Assembly (NCBI RefSeq): GCF_900114485.1
Contig: NZ_FOTF01000025.1
Span: 1-41,854, forward strand
Source: Loktanella salsilacus
Lineage (GTDB): Bacteria > Pseudomonadota > Alphaproteobacteria > Rhodobacterales > Rhodobacteraceae
Length of the DNA: 41,854 bases
Direction: 5' to 3'
The translations under genes and the position numbers were made by a program. Each line of letters begins with the position of its first letter. The first letter of the stretch is position 1. Positions 11,206 through 28,917 of this stretch are shown piece by piece. Below the pieces are notes generated by a model. The model ran no database searches. It was not told the origin of the DNA and saw only the letters and a list, made by a program, of their open reading frames with translations.

Positions 11206-12375
11206 TTACTTCTCGTGTAGCGCTTCTTGGCTGCGATACAGCGGCTTGGTCAGGTAGTGCAGGATGGTCTTTTCACCGGTGTGAAGTTCGACATTGGCCT
11301 GCAGGCCGGGGCGCATTTCGATCTTTTGCTGACGCACACCAAGGTCTTCCATATCGACGCGCACGCTGACGCGGTAATAGGGGTCGGCGTCGGCGCGGCG
11401 TTCGTCCTTGAAGGTATCGGCAGAGATGTTCTGCACCACGCCCGACAGGCTGCCGTAGATCGTGTAATCATAGGCGGACAGCTTGACCGTCGCGGTCTGG
11501 CCGGTGGTCACATTGGCGATGTCCTGCGGCTTCACGTGGGCTTCAACGAACAAAGCGTCATCCAGCGGAATGATCTGGAAAATCTCTTCGCCAGCGCGGA
11601 TCGTACCACCGATGGTGGTGACGCCAAGGTTGTTGACCACGCCGCGCATAGGCGCGCGGATGATCGTGCGGTCCAGCTGGTCAGTGGCATAGGCCAGTTG
11701 CTGGCGCAGTTGCGACAGACCGGCAAGCACTTCTGAGTTTTCGTTCGCGCGGGCCAGTTCCGCGCCGGTGACGATCTCGTTGTATTTGATTTCGGCGTCG
11801 GCATAGGCTTTGCGCGCGCGGGTGGTTTCGGACAGCGACACGATTTCACGGGCCAGCATGTCCTCCATCTGGTCCAGCTCGCGCTTGGATTCGGACATGA
11901 TGCGCTGCGCGCCGTCCACCTTGGACGCATAGTCAGCCTGACGCGCGGCCAGCAGCTGCTTTTCCGACGCAACCATCGCGGGGCTGGCGGCGGCGATCTC
12001 GTCCGGGATATCGAAATCGAACAGGCCTGCCATTTCAGCCTCTAGCCGCAGACGGCGGATGTTGGCGGCGTTGATCTGCTCTTGCAGGTCGTTCACTTGG
12101 GCGACGTATTGGGTGCCTTGCAGGCGAGCAAGGATCTGGCCGTCATCGACGGTATCGCCTTCGCTGACCAGCAATTCGCCCAAAATACCGCCTTCGAAGT
12201 TCTGGATGATCTGGGGACGGGACGCGCTGACGACTTCGCCAGAAGAGCGGACGATTTCGTCAACCCAAGCGAATTTGGCCCAGATGATGAACAGCAGCAC
12301 CGTCGCGCCGACCAGCCAGATGACCATCGAGGGGCGGCGCATTTGGCCTTCGAATTCGTGATCAGCAAGGGCCAT
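11206..12375 (-). CDS. Type I secretion membrane-fusion protein, HlyD family
   Basis: A 389-residue periplasmic adaptor that links the inner-membrane ABC exporter to the outer-membrane TolC channel. One membrane anchor lies at about residues 17-36 (IWLVGATVLLFIIWAKF). A lipoyl-like half follows (VRSSGEVVSAS, then GGILGELLVSEGDTVDDGQILARL), then a long coiled-coil hairpin over about residues 90-240, then the second lipoyl half (RAPMRGVVNNLGVTTIGG) and a beta-barrel region. The start at 12375 overlaps the ABC gene stop by one base (TAATG). It is the last gene of the tolC-ABC-hlyD operon next to the adhesin gene, so the adhesin is its probable cargo. Confidence 0.92.
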   Translation of the reverse strand: MALADHEFEGQMRRPSMVIWLVGATVLLFIIWAKFAWVDEIVRSSGEVVSASRPQIIQNFEGGILGELLVSEGDTVDDGQILARLQGTQYVAQVNDLQEQINAANIRRLRLEAEMAGLFDFDIPDEIAAASPAMVASEKQLLAARQADYASKVDGAQRIMSESKRELDQMEDMLAREIVSLSETTRARKAYADAEIKYNEIVTGAELARANENSEVLAGLSQLRQQLAYATDQLDRTIIRAPMRGVVNNLGVTTIGGTIRAGEEIFQIIPLDDALFVEAHVKPQDIANVTTGQTATVKLSAYDYTIYGSLSGVVQNISADTFKDERRADADPYYRVSVRVDMEDLGVRQQKIEMRPGLQANVELHTGEKTILHYLTKPLYRSQEALHEK

Positions 12376-14648
12376 TACGACGCCTCCTTGTTCATATGGG
12401 CGATGACGTCGTCGCGGGGGCCGTCGATGGCCATGCGGCCATTGTGCAGCACGATGGTGCGGTCGGTCAGTTGCAGCAGCGCCATGCGGTGCGTCGCGAT
12501 CACAGCGGTGCGCCCTTCTAGCCAAGTGGTCAGGCGGGACACGAGAGCTTTTTCAAGGGTCTGGTCCAGCGCCGACGTCGGCTCGTCCAGCAGGCAGACG
12601 CTGGGGTCTTGCAGCCACAGACGCGCCCAGCCGATGGACTGGCGTTGGCCGACGGATAGGCCAGCGCCGCCGTCGCGGATCGTCAGGTCCAACCCCTTGG
12701 GGTGGTTACGGACGAACTGGCCCAAACCGCCGAAATCAAGGGCTGCCAGCATGCGGTCGTCGTCGCGTTCCAGCTGGGTCAGGTTCATGTTGTCGCGCAG
12801 GGTACCGGCGAAAAGCTTTACCTCTTGCCCCAGATAACCCACGCCGCGGCGCAGGTCGCGGGCCAGCACTTGGCCCATGTCCACGCCGTCGATCAACACG
12901 CGGCCCGTGGTGGGCTGGTTCAGACCCGACAGGATTTTCAGCAGCGTCGATTTGCCAGAGCCGTTGGCCCCAAGGACGGCAACGCGCTGGCCTGCTTTGA
13001 TGGTCAGGTTCGGTACGTCGAGGGCGCGCGCGCCTTCTTCGTCATAGGTGTAGGACATTTCGCGCAGGTCATACTGGCCGTTGATCTTTTCGCGGCGCAG
13101 GTAGGTCCGATCCTGATCGTGGTCCTGCGGGGCCTGGACAATTTTGTCGAGCGCATCGAGCGCGGCGCGGGTGTTCGACCAACGGGCGATCAGACCGGAC
13201 AACCCGTTCAGCGGCCCAAGGGTGCGGGACGTCAGGATGCCGACGGCGATGATCGTGCCGACAGTGAATTCGCCTTTGAACACAAGGAAGGTACCCATGA
13301 CGACGGCGGCGACATAAGTCGCCTGCTGCACGCCCTGCGCCCAATAGGTCAGTGTTGTGGACAGGCGGCGCTGTTCAGAGGTCGAGATGGCAGAGAGGCC
13401 CGTCAACTCGGCCCAGAGGCGGGAAAAGCGATCCTCGGCGCGTTGGGATTTGATGGTGTCAGCTTCGAACACTGCTTCTTGCAGCAGGCGGGACGAACGG
13501 GTCGATGCACCTTGGGTCGCCAGCGTCAGCTTCATCATCTTTTTCTGTGCCAGCAGCGATGGCAGCACCATCAGGATGCCGCCTGCGACCAGCACCCAGA
13601 CGACGGGGCCGCCGATGGACCAGACAAGGGCAAGGAACAGAAAGATGAAAGGGATGTCGGTGAGAGAGCCGATGGTGGAGGCGGTAAAGAATTCACGCAC
13701 AGCGGAAAATTCGCGGAACGCCGAGAATGTGGTGGAGGGCGTCTGCCCCGGCAGGCCGGACTGCATACCCAGCAGCTTTTTCATCAGCATGTCTTGCAGG
13801 CGCAGTTCGATCCGGCGCCCTGCCCCGTCCATCAGACGGGCGCGGGCGATGCGCAGGCAGGCTTCGAGCAGCATGGCGATACCAGCGCCGATGGTCAGCA
13901 CCCACAGGGTCGCGACGGACTGGTGCGGGATGACGCGGTCATAGACCTGCAACGAAAACAGCGCGACGGCCACGGCCAGCAGGTTGGCGACAAGAGAACC
14001 GAGGGCGACTTCACCGATCACGCGGCGGAAACTGCCGAATTCGGACCAGAACCAGTGACCCGGCTTGGCTTGGATCGCGTGGCGGCGGTTCAGCTCGGCG
14101 GCGGGCACGACGGCGTGAATGATGCGGCCGGTGAAATGTTCGACGAACTCGGCCAGCGGGACCTCTTGCCGGTGATCGGCGGCGGCGGGGTCGTGCAGGA
14201 TGATGGTGTCGCGGGTCTGTTCCAGCACAAGGACCAGCGTGTCATTGGTCAGGCGGGCGACGGCGGGCCAGTCGGCGATTTGCGGCGGCAGCGCGGTGCG
14301 CGCGCTGGCACGCAGGCCCGCGTCATTCAGCGCGGCGATCAGCGTATCCACGGGCAGGCCCGCGCTGGCATCGTCAATCTGGCGGTCCAGAATATCGGTG
14401 GCTTTCAGATCGACACCCAGCAGTCCGGCGTAGGTCGCCACAACGGCGGCGCACAGCTTTGCTGTGCCGTTATCGCGGCGCGATGCGGCGACAACCGGCG
14501 CTGCGGGCGGGGTTAGATCGACAGGCTCTGCCGCCACGGGCGCGGCGGCCAGATCGGGGGCGGTGTCGGTTGCAGTTTGACCGCCGTGGCGGGTCAACTT
14601 GCCCCCCCGGATTCCGGTCACGTCAAACGCCAGCACGGGTCCGGTCAT
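12375..14648 (-). CDS. Type I secretion ABC transporter, LapB-type permease/ATPase
   Basis: A 757-residue fused permease and ATPase. A disordered Ala/Pro-rich leader (residues 1-55) precedes a C39-like domain of about residues 60-185; it lies at the position of a peptidase but I see no catalytic Cys-His arrangement, as is usual for exporters of large adhesins. Six membrane helices span about residues 200-480. The ATPase has Walker A GANGSGKST, signature LSVGQRQ, Walker B VCLLDEPTSALD and switch His in ATHRMA. Its start overlaps the TolC stop by ATGA, so translation is coupled. Confidence 0.93.
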   Translation of the reverse strand: MTGPVLAFDVTGIRGGKLTRHGGQTATDTAPDLAAAPVAAEPVDLTPPAAPVVAASRRDNGTAKLCAAVVATYAGLLGVDLKATDILDRQIDDASAGLPVDTLIAALNDAGLRASARTALPPQIADWPAVARLTNDTLVLVLEQTRDTIILHDPAAADHRQEVPLAEFVEHFTGRIIHAVVPAAELNRRHAIQAKPGHWFWSEFGSFRRVIGEVALGSLVANLLAVAVALFSLQVYDRVIPHQSVATLWVLTIGAGIAMLLEACLRIARARLMDGAGRRIELRLQDMLMKKLLGMQSGLPGQTPSTTFSAFREFSAVREFFTASTIGSLTDIPFIFLFLALVWSIGGPVVWVLVAGGILMVLPSLLAQKKMMKLTLATQGASTRSSRLLQEAVFEADTIKSQRAEDRFSRLWAELTGLSAISTSEQRRLSTTLTYWAQGVQQATYVAAVVMGTFLVFKGEFTVGTIIAVGILTSRTLGPLNGLSGLIARWSNTRAALDALDKIVQAPQDHDQDRTYLRREKINGQYDLREMSYTYDEEGARALDVPNLTIKAGQRVAVLGANGSGKSTLLKILSGLNQPTTGRVLIDGVDMGQVLARDLRRGVGYLGQEVKLFAGTLRDNMNLTQLERDDDRMLAALDFGGLGQFVRNHPKGLDLTIRDGGAGLSVGQRQSIGWARLWLQDPSVCLLDEPTSALDQTLEKALVSRLTTWLEGRTAVIATHRMALLQLTDRTIVLHNGRMAIDGPRDDVIAHMNKEAS

Positions 14649-15976
14649 ATCTTGTCTCCATCCACCAGCACACCTTTGAGGGCGGCTATTTTGAGTTCGA
14701 CGCGGGCCACTTCAAAGGGCAAGGCGGCGGCTTCGCGGCGCAAGCGCACCGCGCTTTCAAACACGCTGACGACGTCGTTGACGTCGCGCTGTCCAGCGCG
14801 TTGCTGTTCGGCAAAGCTGCGATAGTTCGCCTCTGCGCCTTCCGCCAAGGTGGCGGTCTGTTCTTGCTGGCGCTGTAGCGACGACAATTCGCCTTCCAAA
14901 GCGCGCAAGGACCGTTCCACATCTTCGCGGACTTGGGAAATTCGGGCGTTTGCGCCTTCGGCCTGCTGATCGACGGCCGCCAGCGATGCGCCAAGGCCAA
15001 AACCGATGCCGTCTTCGGTTTCAATCGACAGACCGCCGCTGGATTTGCTGCCAGACACTGCGCCGACAGCTGACAGGCTGGGCAGGAAACCTGCGCGGGC
15101 GGCTTTGGCTTCGGCGACAGAACGGGTGGCCTCGGCCTCTGCCTTGACGACGGCCAAGGGGGTCGCAGCCAGCTCGACCGGTAGGGGCGATGTGCCTTTG
15201 ACGCCGTCAAGCGGCGCTGCGGACATGGCGGCCAGTTCGGCGCGGGCAGCGGCTGCGGCCTCTAGATCAGAGGACATGTCGGCCTGCATCTGATTCAGCT
15301 TTTGCTGCACGACCATGCGGTCAACAGAGTTCGACACGCCGCCTTTGACACGCTCGTCCATGATCCAAGCGAAGTGTTCCATATCGGCCATCGCAGCGGC
15401 GTTCACGGCGGCGCGGGCTTCGGCCTTTTGGGCGGACAGATAAAGGGTCAGCGCGTCTTGGACGCGGTTGTTGGTGTCTTGCGCCAGCGCGACGGCGGCG
15501 ACTTCGACATCGGCCTTAGCATAGGCGCGTTCGGCCTTTTTGCCGCCGTTGTCGAACAGCACCTGTTCCACGACCAGCGATGTGACGACCGCGCCAAGCG
15601 AGGTGAGCGACACAGAGGGGCCAAGGGTCGGCAGCCAGTTTTTCGATTGCGCCTCGGCGCGCAGGGTCGCGGCGCGCAAATCGGATTCAGCAACACGAGA
15701 GTTCGCGGCCAGAACGGCGCTGGACACTTGGGAATATGGGCCTTGCGGCAGGATGGACCGGCGGGTCAGCAGACCAGCGATCACTTCGGATTGGGTGCCG
15801 TCGGGTGTTTCAGTGGCAAGCGCGGGTGCACTGGGGCTGTCCGCCACGGCAGGTTTGCCAAGGCCAATCGCCGAAAACGGACTGCGGGTTACGCTGTCTG
15901 CGCCGCCTGAACAGCCGCTGAGTGCCGCCATCGCGCAAAACGCAATGAGGGTCTTTTTATGTGTTGTCTTGCTCAC
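14645..15976 (-). CDS. TolC-family outer-membrane efflux lipoprotein
   Basis: A 443-residue outer-membrane channel subunit for type I secretion. The N-terminus has a lipoprotein signal (KKTLIAFCAMAALSGC) with the lipobox cysteine at residue 22. The rest is the duplicated TolC coiled-coil pattern: long Ala/Glu/Gln-rich helices such as AYAKADVEVAAVALAQDTNNR and the mirror segment near the C-terminus (NYRSFAEQQRAGQRDVNDVVSVFE). It is the first gene of the three-gene secretion operon and follows the adhesin gene after about 95 bases that contain a hairpin. Confidence 0.92.
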   Translation of the reverse strand: MSKTTHKKTLIAFCAMAALSGCSGGADSVTRSPFSAIGLGKPAVADSPSAPALATETPDGTQSEVIAGLLTRRSILPQGPYSQVSSAVLAANSRVAESDLRAATLRAEAQSKNWLPTLGPSVSLTSLGAVVTSLVVEQVLFDNGGKKAERAYAKADVEVAAVALAQDTNNRVQDALTLYLSAQKAEARAAVNAAAMADMEHFAWIMDERVKGGVSNSVDRMVVQQKLNQMQADMSSDLEAAAAARAELAAMSAAPLDGVKGTSPLPVELAATPLAVVKAEAEATRSVAEAKAARAGFLPSLSAVGAVSGSKSSGGLSIETEDGIGFGLGASLAAVDQQAEGANARISQVREDVERSLRALEGELSSLQRQQEQTATLAEGAEANYRSFAEQQRAGQRDVNDVVSVFESAVRLRREAAALPFEVARVELKIAALKGVLVDGDKI

Positions 15977-16031
15977 GTCTGCTCCGCCCCGGATTTTTAT
16001 TATGGTGGCATGCCCCCCGCCTAGTGGGGCA

Positions 16032-16059
16032 AAGGGGGCCGGTCGTTGCCGGCCCCCTT
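16032..16059 (-). terminator. hairpin after the adhesin gene, before tolC
   Basis: AAGGGGGCCGG (16032-16042) pairs perfectly with CCGGCCCCCTT (16049-16059) around TCGTTG, 12 bases past the adhesin stop on the minus strand. Only a short U-run follows, so it may act as an attenuator that keeps secretion genes below adhesin levels. Confidence 0.65.
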
Positions 16060-16071
16060 GGATCGTGACGT

Positions 16072-19000
16072 TTAGATAGTCGTCGAGAACTGGATGTCGT
16101 CGTCGATCTTAAGCACGGAGTCGCCGCCAACGCTGTAGACGTTGTAGGTTTCGCCGCCGATGACTTCGGTTCCAGTCATTGTCGCAGTGCCTTGGAAGGT
16201 GACAGCGTCGTCCAGCGCGCCATGCACGACCAGAACATTGTCGTTCGCGGACAGATCGTCGATGTTCGCCTTGGTCAGCGACAGGGTCGATTTATCTGCA
16301 AAGGTCAGGTCGATTGCGCCGACGTTAAAGCCGTCGATGCCTGTCGCCGTGACGTCCACAACGTTGGTCGAACGCTCGTCCAGCACCAGCAGGGTCGAGT
16401 TGGTGTTGCCGTGATCGTCGGTCGCGGTGACGATCAACTGCTTGCCGTCTACGACAGGGTTGTCGAAGCCGAACTCCAGCTCTCCGGTGCGGCCGTTCAG
16501 GTAACGGTCGCCGTTGTCAGCGATCAGCGTCGTGCCAGCGCTACCGCTGTTGTAAGAATGCACGGTGATGCTGTCGTCGGTGTTGTCGATGGCGATGTCG
16601 CGGACACCGTTATCGTACAGGCCGATGCCTTCCATCCCAGGCGCGTCCGGCACATCGGTGTCGACCACGAAGGTGTCGGTGATGCTGCGCACGTTGCCAG
16701 CCGCGTCGGTCGCGGTGATCGTGATAGCCGCGTCATAAGTGCCCTGCGGGATTTCAGCGCCCGTGTAGGTCACAGTCCAGGTGGTGCCGGTCACGGTGGC
16801 GGTGTGTGCCAGACCGTTGAAGTCAACAACCACAGAGGAGCCAGCTTCGACTTTGCCGGTCAACGTGATGCCGTCCGACGCCTCTGCCTTGTTCACAACG
16901 TCGTCGGTTTCGACCAGACCGGGGTGGGTCAGGTTGTTAACCCATGTGTCCAGCTTCACGGTGCCCGTGGTGGTCGCGGTGTTACCAGCGGTATCGGTCG
17001 CCTTAACGGTGACGGCGTAGTTGTTTTCCACATTGCCGATTGGCAGCTCGCCAACCGCATAGTTGGACGACCATGTGCCAGCGCTGGTTGCGGTGACAGT
17101 GTGGGTATAGCCGTTGAAGGTCACAACCACGGTAGAGCCTGCGTCGGCGGTGCCGTGCAGAACGATGCCGTCTTTACGCTCTTCGAAGTTCACGATGGCG
17201 TCGGGACCGTCAACGTCAGAGGTGTCGACTGTAACCGCGATTTCGGTGTCGACTTTGACTGTCGCAGACGTCGTTGCCGTGTTGCCAGCCGCATCAGATG
17301 CGACCGCCGTGACGGTTTCGACCTTGCCTTCGCTGCGCGAAATCTCGGTCTTGGAGTATGTCGTGGTCCACTGGCCCGCAGAGTTCGCGGTCACAGTGTG
17401 CGAGAAGCCCGCCATTGTGACGACAACCGTCGCGCCTGCTTCGGATGTGCCGTTGACGACCAGACCTGCGTCCCGCTCGACAGCGTTGACAGTGTTGTCG
17501 CCGCCGGCTGCGATTGGCGTGATCGTGACGCCGATTTCGGTGTCGATCTTAACCGTGGCAGCGGCCGAGGCCGTGTTGCCAGCCGCATCGGTTGCAACAG
17601 CCGTCACGTTTTCGACCTTGAATTCGCTGCGCGAAATCTCGGTTGAAGCGTAGGTCGTTGTCCACTGGCCCGATGCGTTCGCGGTCACGGTGTGCGCGTA
17701 GCCCGCCATGGTGACGACAACGGTTGCGCCAGCTTCGGCGGTGCCCGTGATGGTCAGACCTGCCGTGCGCTCGGCTGCGTTGACAGTGTTGTCGCCGCCA
17801 GCTGCGATCGGGGTGATGGTCACACCCGTGATCGTGTCGATTTCCAGCGTGTCGGTCACAGTGGCTGTGTTGCCGTGGTTATCGGTCGCGGTGACAGTGA
17901 TGTCGACGCTGGTGCCCAGATCGCCCGTTGGCAGCGTGCCAGCAGGAACGTTCAGGGTCCATGTCTCGCCTGTGACGACAGCGTTATAGCTGCTACCACC
18001 AAAGGTCACGGCAACAGTCGAGCCCGCCTGCGTGGTGCCCGTCAGCACAACGCCGTCGGATTCTTCGACGAAGTTCACGGTGCCATCGGTTTCAACCGTG
18101 TCAGCGCTGAAGGTGACTTCAGCCAGCGTGTCCACGTCCAGCGTGCCAGTGTGCGTGATCGTGCCGCCTTCGGTGGTGACAGTCGCGCTGACCGGCAGGT
18201 CGTATTCGCCAGAGGGCAGATCGGTCGCGGGGATCACGATTGTCCAGTCGCCGTTGCCGTCGACAGTCATGTCAACAACCACAGTGCCAACAGTGACCGT
18301 GCCGGATGCATTGGGTGTACCCGTACCGGTGATCGTAACGCCGTCCTGATAGTCAGCGTTGTTTACAACGTGATCCTGCGCGCGGGTGCCGCCGGTGATT
18401 TCAACGGCTGGCAGCTCGGGAGCTTCAACAGGGGTATCGCCCGGGTCGTGCGGTTCGATCGGATCAGGCGTATCGGTGGGGTCTGTGGGATCGGTAGGAT
18501 CTGTCGGGTCGGTAGGGTCCGTAGGATCGGTCGGGACAGTCGGATCCGTTGGATCGGTATCGCCGCCGTCGCCTTCGGTGCCGCCTTCACCACCATCGGG
18601 CTCGTCAGGCGTTTCGGTTGCGGTGCCACCGTCAGTCTCGACTGCAGTTTCGCCGTCACCGCCGCTATCACCGCCGCCGCCGACCAGAGCCAAACCGCCC
18701 AGCGCCGCTGCGCCTGCAGCGCCAAGGCCGCCCAAGCCGCTGATGCCGCCCAGCAAAGGCGCGGCCATCATGGTGGCCTGCGCGTCTTCGATGCCGTCTG
18801 CGGGCAGTGCTGCGATCTGCGTGAAATACAGCTCGTCATCGGGGGACCATTTGCCAAAGCTGTCGCTGTCGACATACTGGGCCAGCATCAGGTTGCCGTC
18901 GCCGGGCACCAGCTGAACTTCGGCCAACTGACCGCCAGAGGACAGGAACAACTGGTTCTGCGCCGCGCCGTTCGCGTCAAAGAACCCTTGAATGGTGATG

Positions 19001-19194
19001 ATCTCTCCATCGACCAGCATAACCTGCAAGGCCGAGCCCTGACGGGCATAGGACATGACATGGCTGCGCTCTAGGTTCAGCGATACGTCTTCGCCCTGAG
19101 AGATGATAATATTTGCATCAGCGCCTTTGCCAGACACTTGGCCACGCTGTAAACCGCCCGCATCATTGCGAACAACGAAATCAATCGCCGACAT
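16072..19194 (-). CDS. Large BapA-like Ig-repeat adhesin exported by type I secretion
   Basis: A 1040-residue, acidic protein in which I see no cysteine. The N-terminus (residues 1-130) matches the prefix domain of Bap/BapA/LapF-type biofilm adhesins (SAIDFVVRN, then QGFFDANGAAQNQLFLSS). An Ala/Gly-rich hydrophobic stretch (144-175) and a Pro-Thr-Asp linker (211-255) follow. Six Ig-like beta repeats of about 98 residues fill 265-845; each ends in a D-x-x-GNT turn and a [LIVF]-x-[IVL]-D-T junction. The last 195 residues contain SLTKANIDDLSANDNVLVVHG, a pattern I associate with type I export signals; there are no RTX nonapeptides. The ATG at 19194 (GGAG 7 bases ahead) is preferred to 19239. The adjoining tolC-ABC-hlyD genes presumably export it. 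Likely surface attachment or biofilm role. Confidence 0.88.
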   Translation of the reverse strand: MSAIDFVVRNDAGGLQRGQVSGKGADANIIISQGEDVSLNLERSHVMSYARQGSALQVMLVDGEIITIQGFFDANGAAQNQLFLSSGGQLAEVQLVPGDGNLMLAQYVDSDSFGKWSPDDELYFTQIAALPADGIEDAQATMMAAPLLGGISGLGGLGAAGAAALGGLALVGGGGDSGGDGETAVETDGGTATETPDEPDGGEGGTEGDGGDTDPTDPTVPTDPTDPTDPTDPTDPTDPTDTPDPIEPHDPGDTPVEAPELPAVEITGGTRAQDHVVNNADYQDGVTITGTGTPNASGTVTVGTVVVDMTVDGNGDWTIVIPATDLPSGEYDLPVSATVTTEGGTITHTGTLDVDTLAEVTFSADTVETDGTVNFVEESDGVVLTGTTQAGSTVAVTFGGSSYNAVVTGETWTLNVPAGTLPTGDLGTSVDITVTATDNHGNTATVTDTLEIDTITGVTITPIAAGGDNTVNAAERTAGLTITGTAEAGATVVVTMAGYAHTVTANASGQWTTTYASTEISRSEFKVENVTAVATDAAGNTASAAATVKIDTEIGVTITPIAAGGDNTVNAVERDAGLVVNGTSEAGATVVVTMAGFSHTVTANSAGQWTTTYSKTEISRSEGKVETVTAVASDAAGNTATTSATVKVDTEIAVTVDTSDVDGPDAIVNFEERKDGIVLHGTADAGSTVVVTFNGYTHTVTATSAGTWSSNYAVGELPIGNVENNYAVTVKATDTAGNTATTTGTVKLDTWVNNLTHPGLVETDDVVNKAEASDGITLTGKVEAGSSVVVDFNGLAHTATVTGTTWTVTYTGAEIPQGTYDAAITITATDAAGNVRSITDTFVVDTDVPDAPGMEGIGLYDNGVRDIAIDNTDDSITVHSYNSGSAGTTLIADNGDRYLNGRTGELEFGFDNPVVDGKQLIVTATDDHGNTNSTLLVLDERSTNVVDVTATGIDGFNVGAIDLTFADKSTLSLTKANIDDLSANDNVLVVHGALDDAVTFQGTATMTGTEVIGGETYNVYSVGGDSVLKIDDDIQFSTTI
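16620..18400 (-). repeat. six tandem Ig-like repeats within the adhesin gene (about 294 bp each)
   Basis: The repeat unit is about 98 codons. Repeats 3 and 4 are the most alike and share GVTITPIAAGGDNTVNA, EAGATVVVTMAG, HTVTAN and GQWTTTY with only scattered changes. Repeats 1, 2, 5 and 6 are more diverged. Recent duplication of repeats 3 and 4 is the simplest reading. Confidence 0.85.
18472..18560 (-). repeat. 9-bp tandem repeat encoding Thr-Asp-Pro in the adhesin linker
   Basis: A run of imperfect 9-base units (type GGATCGGTA) encodes successive TDP triplets between the N-terminal prefix and the Ig repeats. Copy number may vary by slippage without breaking the frame, changing linker length. 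Confidence 0.8.
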
Positions 19195-19349
19195 AAAACT
19201 ACTCCGCCTCATTGCGCGCCCATCAAGGGACACGTCCATTTTGATTGCAGTCAGATTAGCCGGAGTTAATTCTTTAAGCTAGGTGAAATGTGGCGAAGCA
19301 TTCCCCATACCCGCCCTGATGGTGACACATTTGCAATAGCCTGCAGGTT

Positions 19350-25725: not shown

Positions 25726-26046
25726 TCAGCCTACGCGGGGAGGGTTCAAAAGAGATGAAGGCGCTGTTCCAGCAAGCCTGTTTGGCGGCCCAATGGACGC
25801 AGCGCGCCGCAGTTGCTGTGCGCCGTGGATCGTCGCAGCTTCGGGCACAAGCGCGACCCAGACATGGCACACGGGTGCCGCGTCATTCGCGTCACCGCAG
25901 CATGCGACAGTCGCGTCCGCTGCAGGGGTGTCGTTCCCTGCGTGTGCGGCATCGCCCATCACATGTTCGTGCCCACCAGCGGCGACGCTGGCAGTGACTG
26001 TGGTGCAAAGGACCAACAGAACGAGTAAGGCACGCAGGATCAACAT
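25726..26046 (-). CDS. Small secreted Cys/His protein beside the copper operon
   Basis: I do not know a named family for this 106-residue protein. It has a signal peptide (LILRALLVLLVLCTTVTASVA) and a His-rich start of the mature part (GGHEHVMGDAAHAG). Three cysteines follow in VACCGDANDAAPVCH. A conserved-looking C-terminal tail, AGTAPSSLLNPPRVG, resembles the end of the divergently encoded secreted protein (GGTSPAMLPKPPKHA). AGGGG lies 3 bases ahead of the ATG. It is probably a periplasmic metal-handling accessory. It points the same way as the DUF411 operon but ends 84 bases upstream of it. Confidence 0.65.
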   Translation of the reverse strand: MLILRALLVLLVLCTTVTASVAAGGHEHVMGDAAHAGNDTPAADATVACCGDANDAAPVCHVWVALVPEAATIHGAQQLRRAASIGPPNRLAGTAPSSLLNPPRVG

Positions 26047-26225
26047 GACCCCTACCTATGGTGGGTATGCCAACAAAAGCAAGTTGCTGAATGTGGGCGC
26101 GGCAGCGGGTCGCGGTTTGCGCGCGTTTGCAGCGTGCACGGGTGTGCGGCAACATGACGTGCCGTGAAACATGATCTGTTACTTTTGTGACTTGCAGTTC
26201 TGCCGTTCGGCGGTATCCACGGGAT

Positions 26226-26618
26226 ATGACGTCTGCCCTGCAAAACCCTTTTCGTGTAATCATGCAGCACCTTGCGGTGCTTTGTGTCATCGTGGGCTTG
26301 CTGGCACCGCTTGCGGCGCACGCAGCGATGGGCATGCAGTGCGATATGTCTGCCATGTCAGACATGCAGGCATCTGCAGCTGCGCACCATCACGGCGCAA
26401 GTGACGTTGACCAAACGCAGCCCCAGACCCAGACCCAGACATGCCACGAAACAGACGCGCTGTGTGCGGGCATGATTTGTTTTTATGCCATGCCTGTGGC
26501 CATGATCCAAAATGCATCATCCCGGATAGAGGTGATGGCAAATCCGGCGACGCTTGATGAAGCGGTGGCCGGCGGCACCAGCCCTGCCATGCTTCCCAAA
26601 CCCCCAAAACACGCCTGA
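26226..26618 (+). CDS. Small secreted Met/His-rich protein upstream of cusB
   Basis: A 130-residue protein with a signal peptide (HLAVLCVIVGLLAPLAAHA). The mature part has a Met/His-dense start (MGMQCDMSAMSDMQ, then AAHHHG), a Gln-Thr repeat (QPQTQTQT) and cysteines in TCHETDALCAGMICF. The end, GGTSPAMLPKPPKHA, matches the pattern of the divergent protein. Met/His-rich stretches of this kind bind Cu(I) or Ag(I) in the periplasm. The ATG at 26226 is preferred to the one at 26187 because the signal peptide follows it closely. It lies 97 bases ahead of cusB on the same strand and is probably co-regulated. Confidence 0.65.
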   Translation: MTSALQNPFRVIMQHLAVLCVIVGLLAPLAAHAAMGMQCDMSAMSDMQASAAAHHHGASDVDQTQPQTQTQTCHETDALCAGMICFYAMPVAMIQNASSRIEVMANPATLDEAVAGGTSPAMLPKPPKHA

Positions 26619-26715: not shown

Positions 26716-28917
26716 ATGAGCGGACGCTACGCAGCACTTTCCATTCTGGCGCTTGGGGCCGGTTTGGCCGGCGGCATTTCGGCTGAACGGTTTTACTTTA
26801 ACCGCGATGACACCATGGCGGATACGGGGCCAGAGGTCCTGTATTGGGTCGCGCCTATGGACGCGAACTTTCGCAAGGACGGTCCGGGCAAATCCCCAAT
26901 GGGGATGGACCTGATCCCGGTTTACGCAGGGGATGCGCCCGCCGCCGATCCATCCACCGTCACGCTTTCCGCGGCCGAGATTAACGCCATCGGCGTGCGC
27001 ACGGCCGTCGCCACAACGCAGGATATTTCCCAGACAATTCCGACCGTTGGCTATGTCGGCTATGACGATCACCTGACCAGCCATGTGCACACCCGCGTGG
27101 AAGGCTGGATCGAGGATCTGAAGGTCCGCGCCGTCGGGGACCGGGTGGCCAAGGGCGATCTGCTGTTCGCTATGTTCTCGCCCGAAATCGGATCGGCCAG
27201 CGCCGAACACATCCGCGCCCTGCAAGAGGGCAATACCCGCATCATCGAGATTTCGCGCAACCGCCTGCGCAGCGTCGGCATGTCGGACCACCAGATCACA
27301 CAGGTCGAAACCTCGCGCGAGATTGCGCGCAACCTGTCGGTCTATGCCCCGCAAGACGGCGTTGTCATCGGGATCGAGGCGGCGGATGGCATGTATCTGC
27401 AACCCAATGTCCGCGCCGTGTCCCTGACCGACTTGGCGACTGTCTGGCTGGTCGTCGATGTGTTCGAGCGGGACATCGCCCGCCTGACCGACGACATGAC
27501 CGCCGCGATCCGCTTTGAACACATGAACGGCCGCGTATTCGAAGGCCGTGTCGACTACATCTATCCCGAACTTGACGCCAAGACGCGGACCCTGCCCGTG
27601 CGGCTGGTCGTGGATAATGCCGAAGGGCTGCTGAAGCCGAATATGTTCGCAACTGTGGCCCTGTCCCCGGGCGCATCGCGGCTGGCGCTGACCGTCCCGA
27701 CAGAGGCGATTATCCGCACGGGCAGCGCCGAGCGTGTGATCCTAAAGACCGGCGAAGGCACCTTTGCCCCGCGTCTGATCACAACCGGTCTGCGCGATGA
27801 TTTCGACGAAGGCGGCCGCACCGAAGTCGTGCAGGGTTTGGCTGCGGGGGACGAAGTCGTCGCCTCGGCTCAGTTCCTGATCGACAGCGAAAGCGCGCTG
27901 AACGCGGGTCTGATGCGGATGGCCCCGACGGATGCGGCCCCCGCCAAGGGGGCCGGCACGCTGCTAGCCTTTGATCCCGAAACACGAAACGCGACGATCC
28001 GTCATGCCGCGCTTGATTCCTTGGGTTGGCCTGCGATGGAATCTAAGTTCCCCGTCCGCGCCGATGTGGCGATGGACCGCATGACCATCGGGCAAGACGT
28101 CGCCTTCCAGATTACAAGAGGCGCCGGAGGACTGCTGTATCTGTCCGATGTCCGCAGCGACGACGGGATCGCTGCGACCGGGGTTGGCGTGGTCGAAGGC
28201 GTCACCGCTGACGGCAAGCTGACCATGAACCACGAGCCGATCCCCGATTTGGGCTGGCCCGCGATGGTGATGGATATGCCTGTGGCGGGCGTAGACACCG
28301 CAGCTGTCACGGTCGGCACCGCCGTCAACTTTGATCTCGCCAAGGACGGCGATACCTTTGTGATTGTCGGCGTGCGCCCGGTGGAAGACGGCATGCAAAT
28401 GGAGATGCCTGAAACCTCTGCCGTAACGCCAGCCCCCACAACCGCCGCCCCGATCACCGTTGCAGGCACCATTGACGCCGTCGATGTGGCTGCCCGCCGC
28501 GCCACGATCACCCATGGCAACATCACCGAAATTGGCATGCCGGGCATGACAATGGACTTTGACCTGACGGCCGCCGTCGATCCCGCGGCCCTGCCCGTCG
28601 GCGTGGCAACGACCCTGACCTTTGACCGCCCGGACGGCATGACGATGGTGCTGGCTGCGGCAGAAATGCCAAAACCCCCGATGACGGTGACCGGCACCAT
28701 CAACACCATCGACCCCGAGGCCGGCATGGCCAATATCACCCACGGCCCGATGGTCGATATCGGCATGCCCGGCATGACGATGGACTTTGCCGTGGACCCG
28801 GCGCTTGCGGCGGGCGATCTGCCGATTGGGCAGGACGTGACGCTGTTGATGACGCGCAACGATGATTTCACGCTGACGCTGGTGGGCGTGGCAGATGATC
28901 AGCAGGTCGGCCAATGA
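26716..28917 (+). CDS. cusB: CusB-type efflux adaptor fused to four CusF-like domains
   Basis: A 733-residue periplasmic adaptor for a Cu(I)/Ag(I) RND pump. It has an N-terminal hydrophobic anchor (residues 5-22) and a heavy-metal-binding motif at 43-70 (YWVAPMDANFRKDGPGKSPM, GMDLIPVY). The barrel-hairpin-lipoyl core spans about 75-405 (VHTRVEGWIEDLKVRAVGD, SVYAPQDGVVIGI). Escherichia coli CusB ends near this point. Here four CusF-like domains follow: about 414-480, 489-560, 581-650 and 656-728. Candidate ligands are H430/W438/M441 (M49 position is Ser), H506/W514/M517/M519, H600/M608/M611/M613 and H676/M684/M687/M689. Their spacing equals that of CusF H36/W44/M47/M49. The stop overlaps the cusA start (ATGA). 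Confidence 0.92.
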   Translation: MSGRYAALSILALGAGLAGGISAERFYFNRDDTMADTGPEVLYWVAPMDANFRKDGPGKSPMGMDLIPVYAGDAPAADPSTVTLSAAEINAIGVRTAVATTQDISQTIPTVGYVGYDDHLTSHVHTRVEGWIEDLKVRAVGDRVAKGDLLFAMFSPEIGSASAEHIRALQEGNTRIIEISRNRLRSVGMSDHQITQVETSREIARNLSVYAPQDGVVIGIEAADGMYLQPNVRAVSLTDLATVWLVVDVFERDIARLTDDMTAAIRFEHMNGRVFEGRVDYIYPELDAKTRTLPVRLVVDNAEGLLKPNMFATVALSPGASRLALTVPTEAIIRTGSAERVILKTGEGTFAPRLITTGLRDDFDEGGRTEVVQGLAAGDEVVASAQFLIDSESALNAGLMRMAPTDAAPAKGAGTLLAFDPETRNATIRHAALDSLGWPAMESKFPVRADVAMDRMTIGQDVAFQITRGAGGLLYLSDVRSDDGIAATGVGVVEGVTADGKLTMNHEPIPDLGWPAMVMDMPVAGVDTAAVTVGTAVNFDLAKDGDTFVIVGVRPVEDGMQMEMPETSAVTPAPTTAAPITVAGTIDAVDVAARRATITHGNITEIGMPGMTMDFDLTAAVDPAALPVGVATTLTFDRPDGMTMVLAAAEMPKPPMTVTGTINTIDPEAGMANITHGPMVDIGMPGMTMDFAVDPALAAGDLPIGQDVTLLMTRNDDFTLTLVGVADDQQVGQ

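Follow-up and report, generated by a model that had tools for sequence, protein, structure and literature searches.

The window, that is, the whole stretch of DNA analysed here, comprises 41,854 nucleotides of Loktanella salsilacus and contains an adaptor gene, a permease gene and a chaperone gene in one operon. Their coordinates and those of the parts of the adaptor are listed in Table 1.

Table 1. Features of the adaptor operon, with positions counted in the window.
Feature	Length or residues	Positions	Strand	Remarks
CusB-type periplasmic adaptor with four C-terminal CusF modules	733 aa	26716..28917	+	whole ORF including stop
Hydrophobic N-terminal helix	1-28	26716..26799	+	predicted helix 2-28
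HMBD heavy-metal binding segment	43-69	26842..26922	+	with M48, M62, M64
Adaptor core	40-404	26833..27927	+	PF16576, E. coli CusB alignment, Foldseek
CusF module M1	409-480	27940..28155	+	H430-W438-M441-S443; 51.3 bits; Ser/Thr as fourth ligand, not Met
CusF module M2	485-556	28168..28383	+	canonical H506-W514-M517-M519; 60.2 bits
Flexible linker joining M1-M2 to M3-M4	557-580	28384..28455	+	pLDDT <50 in both models
CusF module M3	581-650	28456..28665	+	Met-type H600-M608-M611-M613; 58.8 bits
CusF module M4	655-726	28678..28893	+	Met-type H676-M684-M687-M689; 60.8 bits; predicted strands
CusA-type heavy-metal RND permease	1063 aa	28914..32105	+	start overlaps adaptor stop; TIGR00914 1210 bits, above cut-off
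Separate CusF	145 aa	32102..32539	+	site H-W-M-M; PF11604 49.5 bits; overlaps CusA end

The adaptor ORF was checked on the sequence and found to be open and correctly placed. A gene on the reverse strand was rejected, since that strand has open stretches but the forward strand is accounted for by known families. In the Pfam search, the HMBD segment and HlyD_D23 (residues 104-312) were accompanied by four separate PF11604 stretches with a summed score of 195 bits, and the core reached 232 bits with PF16576. E. coli CusB (3ne5_B) aligned to residues 11-408 (E 8.9e-47), and the stop of this alignment at 408 agrees with the core end near residue 405 that had been proposed. The Foldseek search with the full-length model returned CusB as the best match and solely adaptors among the matches listed, and the NCBIfam model of E. 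coli-type CusB scored 193 bits, below its cut-off of 390. M48, M62 and M64 aligned with the N-terminal Met triad of E. coli CusB and were invariant in 48/48 aligned adaptors. The hydrophobic N-terminal helix is predicted to serve as a membrane anchor or an uncleaved signal.

The permease scored 1316 bits against E. coli CusA, and its three metal-site Met were aligned; we take these to be Met 573, 623 and 672, as judged from a manual count along the alignment. With a homologous core, an N-terminal Met triad and a CusA-type partner carrying a three-Met site, the adaptor belongs to the CusB type (HME-RND). In the relatives with at least 4.2 kb of downstream sequence, CusA adjoined the adaptor in 62/62 cases and was followed by a separate CusF in 58/62. 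The idea that the fusion replaces CusF was rejected on the basis of the 58 loci that keep the separate protein. No outer-membrane factor was found in the operon, and three ORFs with PF02321 were present in the genome. Upstream, on the opposite strand, Pfam identified CopD, CopC, cytochrome c and DUF411 genes. The interval from the DUF411 gene to the adaptor holds two small His/Met/Cys-rich, secreted-looking ORFs, at 25726-26046 (-) and 26187-26618 (+); neither matched a Pfam family above cut-off, and similar ORFs were found in 2 and 1 of 78 relatives, respectively. At 11206-19239 (-), the window also contains a type I secretion set (HlyD-like, LssB-like ABC and TolC-like) beside a 1055-aa adhesin with Ig repeats that resembles BapA. 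The ORF of this adhesin (16072-19239) had been considered as a second RND pump, which was rejected.

Each module was excised and scored alone against PF11604, whose cut-off (gathering score) is 27 bits. All four passed with 51.3-60.8 bits, which confirmed the original prediction of a CusB adaptor with four CusF domains. The predicted CusF-like ligand spacing of 8, 3 and 2 held in M1, M2, M3 and M4, and the strand motif expected in three of the four modules was present in M2-M4 and not in M1. The pattern H-x7-[WM]-x2-M-x-[MST] occurred four times in residues 405-733 and was absent from the core, while 20,000 shuffles of residues 405-733 yielded it at most once per shuffle, with a mean of 0.0038. 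A chance motif was excluded by these shuffles together with the profile scores of the single modules. Moreover, this tail holds just four His, all of which are the ligand His.

The structure predictions past residue 405, which had been suggested as a check, gave five-stranded units for all four modules, i.e., the CusF-type barrel. Structural matches to CusF, SilF and the C-terminal domain of SilB were listed for M1 and M3 alone, and M2 and M4 were assigned by their PF11604 scores and predicted strands. M1 was predicted to begin about ten residues past the final core helix, the gap between M1 and M2 is four residues, and about 24 residues of linker precede the M3-M4 pair. The relative placement of the modules was of low confidence in the two models (pTM 0.46 and 0.40).

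The metal sites of the four modules were not identical. The earlier reading was right about the CusF domains, the adaptor and the spacing, but it had treated the modules as equal copies, and this part was an oversimplification, since M1 is without the last Met ligand, M3 and M4 have Met for the Trp cap, and the order is kept across the clade. The ligand sets were compared in 78 adaptors, namely those with at least three modules among the best 80 of 105 loci fetched by peptide patterns; two loci were left out, L067 because an in-frame stop breaks its array and L084 because its partial match had one module. M1 was H-W-x-S/T in 78/78 adaptors, with Met at the third position in 72 and another residue in 6, and M2 was H-W-M-M in 78/78. 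From M3 onward, the site was H-M-M-M in 166/167 modules (only module four of L083 deviates), a conservation that is partly due to selection because the fetch patterns included MPGMTMDF (M3/M4) as well as WPAMESKF (M1). In an alignment of 48 adaptors with 54-85% identity to that of the window, the ligand columns were invariant save M441 (44/48 Met) and S443 (32 Ser, 16 Thr). The same site order was found in 14 adaptors of four or five modules that were reached through PF11604 alone, with no peptide patterns, although one of them, L128, shows M1 only, its remaining modules duplicating those of L127. Judged by these residues, M2 fits the CusF ligand set His-Trp-Met-Met, and M1, M3 and M4 are predicted to be non-canonical CusF sites.

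PF11604 proteins as a whole are of two types, Trp (H-W-M-M) and Met (H-M-M-M), and the latter is common in the free or short PF11604 proteins of the family, e.g., L111-L126. In the source genome, L193:4923-5642 (contig C30) encodes a protein of 239 aa, apparently a fusion of a cupredoxin and a CusF-like domain with a His-Met-Met-Met site; its neighbours are a multicopper-oxidase-like gene and an outer-membrane factor. The cupredoxin and the oxidase were named by reading their sequences.

A profile of the four-module array was found in 25/292 genomes of the order, 4/387 of the class and 6/397 of the phylum, all six of the last being from the window's class; the family, order, class and phylum samples overlap, and the profile targets the array of this clade, so that unrelated four-module arrays could escape it. 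In the family, PF11604 was detected in 28/199 genomes, and 12 of these 28, including that of the window, had one ORF with four or five matches. The array is thus an accessory trait with a patchy distribution, centred on Roseobacter-type bacteria. Outside the roseobacters, relatives among the best 80 of 105 loci came from Roseibium, Hoeflea, Rhodobiaceae and one Azospirillaceae MAG. Plasmids also carry it: 64 records matched at E 1e-60, 31 of them covering at least 80% of the query. Dinoroseobacter shibae, a marine roseobacter grown in the laboratory, is one of the bacteria with a relative on a plasmid. The occurrence of relatives in so many loci and genomes refutes the notion that the array is unique to the source genome. 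As to whether four-module CusB proteins are common and already described, which the original prediction had named as a test, they are fairly common in one clade, and the open-licence literature, outside which most subscription papers lie, yielded no account of a CusB with CusF domains in tandem. Two marine copper papers contained nothing on domain layout. Database entries of the relatives bear the label "efflux RND transporter periplasmic adaptor subunit" or else "copper-binding protein", and the former conceals anything from one to five chaperone modules.

Elsewhere in the phylum, adaptors with one, two and three modules were found among the matches listed, with two in Vibrio and Indioceanicola and three in Alteromonas and Salinimonas. 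The two-module gammaproteobacterial adaptors L180, L190 and L191 have a second module that is without the ligand His and one Met and keeps the Trp and the fold; as read from these residues, it may no longer bind metal. One further adaptor, L175, has two near-identical CusF modules and represents a recent duplication.

Among the 80 loci, which are the best 80 of 105 relatives, four modules were present in 63 adaptors, five in 13 and three in 2. In one relative (L067:5956-7989), the array is cut by the in-frame stop past the second module. In a tree of 168 modules, M1 (27 rows), M2 (27), M3 and later modules (60) and the separate operon CusF (10) each made up one side of a well-supported branch, in an alignment of only 69 columns for 168 rows with an unsettled bootstrap. 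The rows of this tree were picked by hand and consisted of 27 multi-module adaptors, 10 operon CusF and a 131-row remainder (their modules and 44 other domains). An origin of M3 and M4 from the common Met-type CusF proteins was rejected, as the two did not group in this tree, which, given its 69 columns and unsettled bootstrap, falls short of proving convergence. M1 and M2 were single-copy in all 78 adaptors, the Met-type modules numbered from one to three, and the fifth modules were nested in the clade of M3 and later modules, which indicates that copy number shifts in the Met-type part. Between the window and L005, the linker has evolved faster than the modules (dN/dS 0.30 against 0.05-0.19), and the core had a ratio of 0.07. 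These values are rough, since they come from a single pair whose synonymous divergence is high and, in M1 and M3, close to saturation.

On this evidence, we favour, with a probability of roughly 55%, the reading that the protein serves as adaptor in a CusB-CusA kind of RND pump for Cu(I)/Ag(I), and that its tail is a tethered arm of four CusF modules, in which M3 and M4 collect metal and M2 and M1 relay it or signal its arrival. It is the best explanation of the observed domain content, predicted fold, ligand order and conservation, and operon, from which we infer metal binding, direction of transfer and stoichiometry. The fixed order of different sites among related marine bacteria suggests a purpose-built metal-collecting arm. 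This pump would export Cu(I)/Ag(I), and each module may bind one ion. E. coli CusF donates Cu(I) to the N-terminus of CusB via a shared-ligand intermediate, CusB then activates CusA, and six CusB bind one CusA trimer (PMC6235853, available excerpt). In the proposed arm, the M1-M2 pair would be fixed and come after the membrane-proximal region of the adaptor, and the M3-M4 pair would sit on the flexible linker. M3 and M4, with His and three Met, would pick up periplasmic Cu(I)/Ag(I); M2 and then M1 would deliver the metal, or report its presence, to the Met sites in the N-terminus of CusB and in CusA. A pump with six adaptors per trimer, as in E. coli, would have 24 sites. Complementation was lost when both CusF Met ligands were replaced (PMC9302797, available excerpt), and M1, being one Met ligand short, is therefore predicted to be a weaker site.

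Several points weigh against the arm. The retention of a separate CusF in 58/62 loci means that the modules are no plain substitute for it. With a tight outer site and a weak inner one, affinity alone would exert no inward pull, and M1 may bind no metal and act in structure or docking instead. Roseobacter litoralis, a plasmid of which carries a five-module relative, was inhibited by copper at 0.04 mM, and R. denitrificans grew at 0.1 mM; the authors proposed other cations, and listed R. litoralis genes as CusB-like, CusA and CusF, with locus tags that we matched by order (PMC3141670, available excerpt). The lower copper tolerance of the carrier counts against a strong role in resistance. In a more polarised version, which we regard as tentative and rather doubtful, the movable Met-type pair would load as a conveyor, M2 and M1, fixed, specialised and single-copy, would pass the metal on to CusB and CusA, the last being weakened for quick release, and the free CusF would have another job, e.g., unloading. 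If so, the pump would bear its own metallochaperone line, with up to 24-30 sites per trimer.

It is unlikely that the modules are a plain local buffer that just raises the Cu(I)/Ag(I) count near the pump, with order and site type irrelevant. The Met-type number does vary from one to three, as a buffer would allow, and extra sites arose independently in several lineages (Vibrio two, Alteromonas three), but M1 and M2, constant in number in 78 adaptors, with distinct ligand sets and in separate clades, would be needless for a buffer. This constancy beside a variable Met-type part suggests that the two parts have different jobs. Less convincing still, and improbable in our view, is a metal-sensing gate, whereby loaded modules would activate the pump by altering adaptor conformation or assembly, with little metal passing through them. 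The activation of E. coli CusB by metal from CusF (PMC6235853, available excerpt), the predicted position of M1 about ten residues from the last core helix and the conserved alteration of the M1 site are all consistent with it, but several Met-type modules on a long linker would be left unexplained. A neutral duplication, in which extra CusF modules derived by slippage add little, is very unlikely and already disfavoured: the ligand loss in the second modules of L180, L190 and L191 implies that extra copies can decay, and fifth modules do arise within the Met-type clade, but the ligands are kept over the wide divergence of the 48 aligned adaptors, and every module has a dN/dS well below 1 in the one pair compared.

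The tethered arm would place donor and acceptor in one chain in a fixed order, whereas prior work on Cu(I)/Ag(I) transfer used separate CusF and CusB, and its linked sites offer a natural test of metal movement along a chain. The role of the Trp cap in CusF is not fully understood in the field (PMC6235853, available excerpt), and no CusF W44M variant was found in the open-licence literature. The three natural site types (His-Trp-Met-Ser/Thr, His-Trp-Met-Met and His-Met-Met-Met) provide a natural system for studying this role.

The adaptor shares its core, N-terminal Met triad, CusA partner and CusF fold with the E. coli CusCFBA system. However, E. coli CusB is without a fused CusF, and E. coli CusF has a single His-Trp-Met-Met site. 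Compared with that site, Met takes the place of Trp in two modules of the present adaptor, and Ser/Thr that of the last Met in another. SilF (8bhu, 8bbz, 8bwv) is likewise a free protein with one site (PMC10656224, available excerpt). The stand-alone or cupredoxin-fused Met-type CusF proteins (e.g., L001, L111-L126) have the His-Met-Met-Met site of M3 and M4, but not on an adaptor. The adaptors of Vibrio, Alteromonas, Salinimonas and Indioceanicola (L171-L174) likewise carry tandem CusF modules on a CusB-type adaptor, but with fewer modules, no Met-type site in those read and a second module that is sometimes decayed, and their modules lie outside the M1, M2 and later-module clades of the tree. 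The single C-terminal CusF fusion assumed in the original prediction exists in SilB of Cupriavidus metallidurans CH34, a CusB-type adaptor (Bersch et al., 2011, via the available excerpt of PMC4446572; NMR structure 2l55). The tandem modules are a variation on this known single-module fusion, with four modules in place of one and with an ordered series of different sites that SilB is without.
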